NCBI RefSeq assembly: GCF_033473495.1 | Contig: NC_088935.1 | Span: 4,340,001-4,404,000 of the forward strand | Length of the DNA: 64,000 nucleotides | Origin: Cercospora beticola | Lineage: Eukaryota > Ascomycota > Dothideomycetes > Mycosphaerellales > Mycosphaerellaceae | Direction: 5' to 3' | Shown here: positions 54,977-55,697 of the stretch, piece after piece | How positions within the stretch are numbered: position 1 is the stretch's first letter | How the letters are laid out: every line of letters begins with the position of its first letter | Program-made: the position numbers and the translations under genes | The notes under the pieces: generated by a model | What the model was told of the DNA's origin: nothing | The model's input: the letters and a program-made list of their open reading frames with translations, nothing else | Databases searched by the model: none

Positions 54977-54991
54977 TCCCGCGTGGCACAA

Positions 54992-55046
54992 GTACGTCTC
55001 ATCACCTTACCAACCCAAAATTACTGTGATCCTAACATCTTCGCAG
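54992..55046 (+). other. 55-nt spliceosomal-type intron inside the tRNA D-arm
   Basis: It begins GTACGT, contains CCTAAC (branch A at 55035) and ends CGCAG, with 11 nt from branch A to the end. The SMC1 intron in this window has the same branch-to-end spacing. It cannot be a canonical tRNA intron, which is confined to the anticodon loop. Splicing it out joins CACAA to TTGGC and restores the D-arm and the box A match. Confidence 0.7.
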
Positions 55047-55069
55047 TTGGCTAGCGCGTGAGACTTTTA

Positions 55070-55080
55070 GCAATAAGAGC
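55070..55080 (+). other. Canonical 11-nt tRNA intron
   Basis: Located immediately after anticodon-loop position 37, the site cut by the eukaryotic tRNA endonuclease. Its removal yields the seven-base loop CTTTTAA. Confidence 0.8.
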
Positions 55081-55116
55081 ATCTCAAGGTTGAGAGTTCG
55101 AGCCTCTCCGCGGGAG

Positions 55117-55697
55117 CGTTATCTGTTCAATCAGATGCCTGATTTTTTTGTCCTTCTTTTGGTTTTATTTTGGCCGTTCGGGGGTAGGGAAAAAAAAACC
55201 GGGACAACCCGCAGGAACTCCAGAACGACGAACTTCGCAATACGCCGCTACAAAGGCTACGATTTCGCGACATATCAGATATAGCGCTATATTCCGCAGA
55301 TGCGTAGTCCTGTCCGACGCTCTTAGTTGAGAATTGTACCGTTGTCGTCGCGTTGTGTGTTGAGAGATCGGTTTGCGACGCTTGGCGGGATGTCCCGTCA
55401 TTTTTGTCACCCGGGTGGCTGGTCCACTTGTGCCTGCAATGCAAGTCCAACTTTTGTCTCCCTTTTGCATCTTACTAGGCTTTTATGACTAGCTGAGAGA
55501 GCTTGTGGAGCATTGAGCCCGTAAAACCAACGGCCATTTCATTCCTTTTGCTGTTAGAAATACCCTTTCACACGCTATCAACAAATGAGAACCGCCCGGG
55601 CACGCACAGCACAGCTGGCAATCATAGAAATAATGGTACAAGAATCGAATTCGACCTCTCGCCGGTCCGCAACGACATGCAATCCCGCACAGTCGTT
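55117..55697. other. Intergenic, tRNA 3' flank
   Basis: About 580 bp with several T-rich runs close to the tRNA. No gene recognised. Confidence 0.45.
55143..55149 (+). terminator. Pol III terminator (T7)
   Basis: Run of seven T residues 27 nt after the tRNA 3' end. Confidence 0.5.

Follow-up and report, generated by a model that had tools for sequence, protein, structure and literature searches.

The window, that is, the whole stretch of 64,000 nucleotides of Cercospora beticola DNA that was analysed (C1:4340001-4404000 of the 36.07 Mb searched, on 10 contigs), harbors a tRNA-Lys(UUU) gene with two inserts (Table 1). A PIG-S protein encoded in the window shares 97% identity with Cercospora kikuchii, 95% with C. 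berteroae and 90% with C. zeina. By direct reading, exon 1 is TCCCGCGTGGCACAA, and downstream of a 55-nt insert the gene continues as TTGGCTAGC... on to 55116, the D loop resuming with TTGGCTA. Direct reading agrees with the original prediction that the stems are intact on both sides of this D-arm insert (GTACGT...CGCAG), with 7 pairs in the acceptor stem, 5 in the T stem and 5 in the anticodon stem. Once the insert is removed the cloverleaf is sound, apart from a D stem that reaches three of its four pairs, the A12-C23 mismatch being retained. A further intron of 11 nt, predicted for the anticodon loop, is present as well (GCAATAAGAGC, by direct reading) at position 37/38, shared with canonical eukaryotic tRNA introns, whereas the longer insert sits elsewhere. 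One detail of the prediction needed correction: CCTAAC, placed by it 11 nt before CGCAG, ends 5 nt before CGCAG and 10 nt before the end of the insert.

Table 1. Features of the interrupted tRNA-Lys(UUU) gene (window coordinates) and insertion sites in the nine interrupted tRNA genes (tRNA position numbers)
Feature	Position	Strand	Basis
tRNA-Lys(UUU) gene, interrupted	54977..55116	+	Direct reading, ARAGORN on joined sequence, genome scan
Exon 1: acceptor 5' strand, positions 8-9, 5' D stem, A14 A15	54977..54991	+	Direct reading; position numbers assigned here
55-nt spliceosomal-type intron between positions 15 and 16	54992..55046	+	Direct reading, ARAGORN, scan, intron comparison
5' splice site GTACGT	54992..54997	+	Direct reading, intron comparison
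Branch-site motif CTAAC, end 10 nt before insert end	55032..55036	+	Sequence motif
3' splice site CAG	55044..55046	+	Direct reading, intron comparison
Exon 2: rest of D arm, 5' anticodon stem, loop through A37	55047..55069	+	Direct reading, ARAGORN
Anticodon TTT	55066..55068	+	ARAGORN
Canonical 11-nt tRNA intron at 37/38	55070..55080	+	ARAGORN i(39,11) in joined sequence
Exon 3: 3' anticodon stem, variable loop, T arm, acceptor 3' strand, discriminator G	55081..55116	+	Direct reading, ARAGORN
Box B core GTTCGAGCC	55096..55104	+	Direct reading; within T-arm pattern unique in genome at up to 2 mismatches
T7 run, candidate Pol III terminator, 26 nt past gene (starts +27)	55143..55149	+	Direct reading
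Lys-UUU (window)	insert 15/16		Scan; position numbers assigned here
Thr-AGU, three genes (L113, L123, L124)	insert 11/12		Scan; position numbers assigned here
Pro-AGG (L118)	insert 23/24		Scan; position numbers assigned here
Asp-GUC (L126)	insert 23/24		Scan; position numbers assigned here
Leu-CAA (L011)	insert 25/26		Scan; position numbers assigned here
Val-UAC (L063)	insert 27/28		Scan; position numbers assigned here
Leu-CAG (L010)	insert in variable arm		Scan; position numbers assigned here

ARAGORN called no tRNA in the whole window, and the Rfam tRNA model gave no match to the interrupted gene at E up to 1, while a covariance model built from tRNAs of the same Cercospora genome meets it only from inside the insert end onward (model positions 10-64, 28.9 bits). 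In a comparison with and without the insert, of the kind suggested by the original prediction, ARAGORN with anticodon introns allowed was silent on the gene with its insert and, with the insert removed, returned tRNA-Lys(ttt) with an 11-nt intron. An Rfam match to RAGATH-13 in the same region reached 22.6 bits for a cut-off of 80 bits and was rejected. The tRNAscan-SE 2.0 paper gives a single intron as the limit for tRNA genes of eukaryotes (PMC8450103).

Is the lysine gene a singular case? At least nine tRNA genes of this genome carry a GT-AG insert, representing seven isoacceptors, six insertion sites and six contigs, and the scan finds the canonical 37/38 intron in these genes too. The tRNA loci came from a family search (62 of 905 candidates scored) and from box B patterns. 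Of two further sets of box B sites, the inventory takes in 16 of 40 (13 sites in the control) and a minority of 138 (94 in the control; 100 of the 138 listed). Over 109 acceptor/T-arm pairings, the scan sought 45-75-nt segments of the form GTNNG...branch-like...YAG whose removal gives a good cloverleaf, and reported the best hit per locus and strand. Nine of the 41 parsed genes carry an insert and 32 other distinct genes do not, in a partial inventory whose denominator leaves out genes below the parse cut-off, such as the Leu-TAG gene L119. An insert is present in all three Thr-AGU genes found and in one of two Asp-GUC genes. As the nine cases are spread over six contigs, assembly error is an implausible source of the inserts. 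The exact Lys or Thr exon patterns were absent from viral contigs, and that of Lys was, as expected, absent from prokaryote genomes.

Removal of the inserts restores recognition in most of these genes. Among the eight tried (Val left out), ARAGORN missed Lys and reported a wrong tRNA for the other seven before removal; after removal it read Lys-ttt, Pro-agg, Asp-gtc, Leu-cag and two of the three Thr-agt genes correctly, its errors on Leu-CAA and on one Thr copy counting against a spliceosomal reading. Our own tRNA parser recovered the expected anticodon in 9/9 genes. Mending by itself is little evidence: when every deletion of 45-75 nt was tried as a control, 17 genes had at least one that repaired them. 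Among the mending deletions GT-AG was nevertheless the commonest of 140 end pairs, with six genes for three in the next best pair, a count in which the three Thr genes stand as one and from which Lys (18.2) falls below the cut-off of 18.5, by our own reckoning.

The same inventory contains tRNA-like loci of other kinds. Clusters at L110 (C7:1261380-1262740), L111/L013 (C5:2688800-2689720), L060, L104, L052, L112, L009, L131 and L064, with which further, unread box B sites at C8:747298-749151 were grouped, show acceptor, D and T arms that are for the most part sound and, as a rule, a T run, together with an anticodon region mostly filled by 70-220 nt and no consistent anticodon; they could represent a Pol III RNA family or else tRNAs in decay. 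The scan found no insert in them, its 60-nt limit on anticodon filling shutting out most of these clusters. About 250 nt upstream of a tRNA-Ala(AGC) gene lies a damaged second copy of the tRNA-Ala 5' part (L021). L027 and L014 have quite different tRNA bodies, both read as CGT by our parser and otherwise by ARAGORN. The tRNA at L004 (C7:2750480-2750551) bears the anticodon GAT (Ile), which is unusual in a eukaryotic nucleus, on a body that looks bacterial-like to us.

The nine inserts are 53-59 nt long and start with GT and end with YAG in 9/9 genes, ends that formed part of the scan criteria by which they were found. Their 5' splice site follows GTRNGY in eight cases and is GTTAGT in Val, and a branch-like motif lies 10-12 nt before the insert end in all nine; the weak motifs of Asp (CTCAT) and Leu-CAA (TTGAC) count against a spliceosomal reading. 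The predicted similarity in length to protein-gene introns is borne out, since the 55 nt of the Lys insert equal the median of 27 protein-gene introns (range 42-69 nt; median branch distance 11), a set chosen by motif and ORF joining, up to 75 nt, with branch distance filtered to 6-16. The parent search behind this set gave 51 two-ORF joins versus 11 in a reversed control, although reversal also alters the ORFs, and fewer bare motif hits than that control (336 versus 460). Other routes to such a set brought little: two codon-based attempts were unproductive, and a first ORF joining was swamped by antisense frames. Canonical introns of tRNA genes lacking an insert do not share these ends, none of the 22 parsed starting with GT and ending with AG. 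The inserts resemble U2-type introns in their GT/YAG ends, in a branch motif at the usual distance, in length, and in a product restored upon exact removal. The branch motif is CTAAC in seven of nine tRNA inserts versus CTGAC in at least 14 of the 27 protein-gene introns, as if the tRNA introns were kept to a different, perhaps stronger, branch site.

To what extent does tRNA structure dictate where an insert begins and ends? Structure alone fixes the boundary only in the three Thr genes. When deletions of the same length were compared in eight genes (Val left out), the GT-AG register was the sole solution in each Thr gene and one of 4-13 solutions in the other five. For Lys-UUU, 8 of 53 such deletions score at least as well; a neighbouring placement is slightly higher in Lys, Pro and Asp (19.5 versus 18.5-19.0), and in Pro and Asp the covariance model shifts the gap by a few bases. 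The two Asp-GUC genes settle their boundary differently: L126 carries a 53-nt GTAAGT...ACAG insert, and L035, its paralogue, lacks the insert but is identical in mature sequence, the canonical introns of the two being different, so that the boundaries of the insert are fixed without appeal to structure. In the Thr-AGU genes the mature sequences are identical and the inserts are 62-64% alike pairwise, barely more than the 52-63% of other pairs among the eight compared, while all three inserts keep GTANGY, YAG, and a CTAAC at a distance of ten or eleven nt from the end. Identical exons, diverged inserts and conserved signals point to selection acting on the splice signals only. As far as sequence comparison goes, the Thr divergence and the Asp pair argue for real splicing.

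How far does the cell depend on such genes? The question of other tRNA-Lys(UUU) genes, raised by the original prediction, receives a divided answer: the 21-nt T arm of the window gene has no second site in the genome when up to two mismatches are allowed, but ARAGORN calls two other tRNAs as 'ttt'. One of these (L013) lies in an odd tRNA-like cluster and is read otherwise by our parser, and the other (L022) has a mitochondrial look. L022 (C2:3502300-3503400) comprises three AT-rich tRNA genes of this kind, one of them ttt, inside a 5.2-Mb contig, and is perhaps inserted mitochondrial DNA. Lysine AAA codons are in use, making up 27 of 86 Lys codons in four ORFs of the window. The window gene is likely, though not proven, to be the only nuclear Lys-UUU gene. 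The case for dependence is stronger for Thr-AGU, because all three genes found carry an insert.

Since box B is intact in the interrupted genes and T runs lie behind most of them, transcription would be by Pol III. Six of the nine genes (the three Thr genes, Pro, Asp and Leu-CAA) have a T run that begins 5-6 nt behind them; for Val it begins at about +24 and for Lys at about +27, and there is none within 30 nt for Leu-CAG. The resulting precursor would carry both introns; the spliceosome would remove the GT-AG intron, allowing the D arm to form and the tRNA body to fold, and the canonical 37/38 intron would come out next through the tRNA splicing endonuclease and ligase, a step for which the folded body is required. 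This order is suggested by the fact that the endonuclease measures its cut sites from the tRNA body, as stated in a review (PMC4090602). Several features count against the scheme. In Lys and Thr box A is interrupted by the insert, which means that TFIIIC would have to tolerate the interruption, and a spliceosome would not ordinarily work on an uncapped RNA with first exons of 11-27 nt. The late or missing T runs of Val, Lys and Leu-CAG and the A12-C23 mismatch in the Lys D stem also speak against it. In Lys, the insert end and the next exon (GCAG-TTGG) slightly resemble the right half of box A, which is given as a remark only.

These promoter features bear on the choice of polymerase. Spliceosomes normally act on Pol II RNA, and the spliced tRNAs could derive from Pol II transcripts, for example by processing from a longer RNA; the interruption of box A in Lys and Thr and the lack of a close T run in three of nine genes would fit such an origin. 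The close T runs of the six other genes and the intact box B speak against it, as does the lack of any ORF of at least 300 aa between 54373 and 56862 in the window. The ORF upstream of the Lys tRNA found no relatives when used as a protein query. Pol II transcription is a rather unlikely variant of the spliceosomal explanation and not exclusive of it, as introns transcribed in this way would be no less spliceosomal. Another view would treat the interrupted genes as dead or silent copies and their inserts as debris. Asp has a second gene without an insert, and a review supposes that an insertion in the D or T arm of one of many synonymous eukaryotic tRNA genes marks a pseudogene (PMC4090602). 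Such decay is hard to reconcile with inserts in 3/3 Thr-AGU genes found, whose mature sequences have stayed identical while the inserts diverged, with a Lys T arm unique at up to two mismatches, and with T runs placed 5-6 nt behind six genes, and it is very improbable.

Could the tRNA splicing endonuclease be what removes the inserts, as non-canonical tRNA introns of the kind known from archaea, nucleomorphs and Cyanidioschyzon? Introns of the D and T arms do exist in some eukaryotes according to the same review (PMC4090602). Removal by this enzyme requires a bulge-helix-bulge or the geometry of an anticodon loop, yet the junctions show no bulge-helix-bulge, their summed pairs being 2-6 of 12 versus a mean of 4.5 elsewhere (eight genes, Val left out). 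This argument is not final, many nucleomorph introns also lacking a defined bulge-helix-bulge (PMC3978253), but endonuclease cleavage would also leave unexplained why GT, CTAAC and YAG persist in the diverged Thr inserts, and a chance of a few in a hundred seems as much as it deserves. Finally, the inserts might be small degenerate group I introns. Group I introns follow U and end in G, whereas none of the nine inserts comes after a U, the exon before each of them ending in A, C or G. Rfam intron families were moreover absent at E up to 1 from the Lys region, the one scanned, so that although length and host group are alike, with degenerate group I introns of 56-81 nt described in fungal rRNA genes (PMC3160393), this origin is hardly conceivable.

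With high probability on present sequence evidence, the 55-nt insert is a true spliceosomal intron of the U2 type, and the tRNA-Lys(UUU) gene that carries it is functional, whichever polymerase transcribes it, and is one of at least nine such genes. The D-arm intron of spliceosomal type put forward in the original prediction gains support from the eight further genes, from the Asp pair with and without insert, and from the match to protein-gene introns. Its suggestion of introner-like elements as a possible source fared less well: a recent origin is unsupported, the Lys and Asp inserts (two of nine, those searched) matching only themselves in the genome. The introner-like elements of Dothideomycetes are spliceosomal introns gained in related fungi (PMC4457414), and form families of hundreds of near-identical copies, whereas the Cercospora inserts are 52-64% alike pairwise (eight compared).

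In teaching, the splicing of tRNA is kept apart from that of mRNA, and spliceosomal tRNA introns would greatly surprise specialists. In fission yeast and some other fungi the U6 snRNA gene has an mRNA-type intron, and is in this respect like the Cercospora inserts, a spliceosomal intron in a Pol III gene, but U6 is itself a spliceosome RNA. The one U6 gene found in the Cercospora genome gives a full-length model match in 102 nt and has no intron. The nearest published case is the rDNA of lichen fungi, which contains short spliceosomal introns, one of which, of 57 bp, was removed from Pol I transcripts when placed in yeast rDNA (PMC8527467). Lichen fungi and Cercospora are alike in having short spliceosomal introns in a non-mRNA gene; the lichen introns reside in Pol I rRNA, without a second splicing of tRNA type on the same RNA, and those of Cercospora in tRNA. 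Archaea, nucleomorphs and Cyanidioschyzon merolae resemble Cercospora in having D-arm introns, sometimes beside a canonical one (PMC4090602, PMC3978253). Those introns are attributed to the tRNA endonuclease and often have a bulge-helix-bulge, whereas the Cercospora inserts have GT-AG ends and a branch-like site and no bulge-helix-bulge (eight tested). A review of 2014 presumes that non-canonical introns are rare among eukaryotes, nucleomorphs and C. merolae excepted (PMC4090602), and one of 2026 places tRNA splicing among the processes that do without the spliceosome (PMC13149111). Among the open-access papers listed by the searches, none described a spliceosomal intron in a nuclear tRNA gene, preprints and most subscription papers lying outside that search.

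Taken together, it is likely that in Cercospora, and probably in its relatives too, a sizeable share of the nuclear tRNA genes (at least nine genes of seven isoacceptors, at six sites) are long-standing substrates of the spliceosome. Their transcripts would be Pol III RNAs with uncapped first exons down to 11 nt (plus leader), needing both the spliceosome and the tRNA endonuclease; an essential tRNA supply, including that of every Thr-AGU gene found, would depend on mRNA-type splicing, and the split box A of two isoacceptors would imply a relaxed or altered promoter reading. If this is true, the spliceosome handles Pol III RNA devoid of a cap and with tiny first exons, and tRNA supply is coupled to mRNA-type splicing, while annotation that limits eukaryotic tRNA genes to one intron may miss essential genes. 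Such genes would also offer a clean system for following the entry and persistence of introns in non-coding genes, in which selection on splice signals is directly readable because the tRNA exons are fixed.
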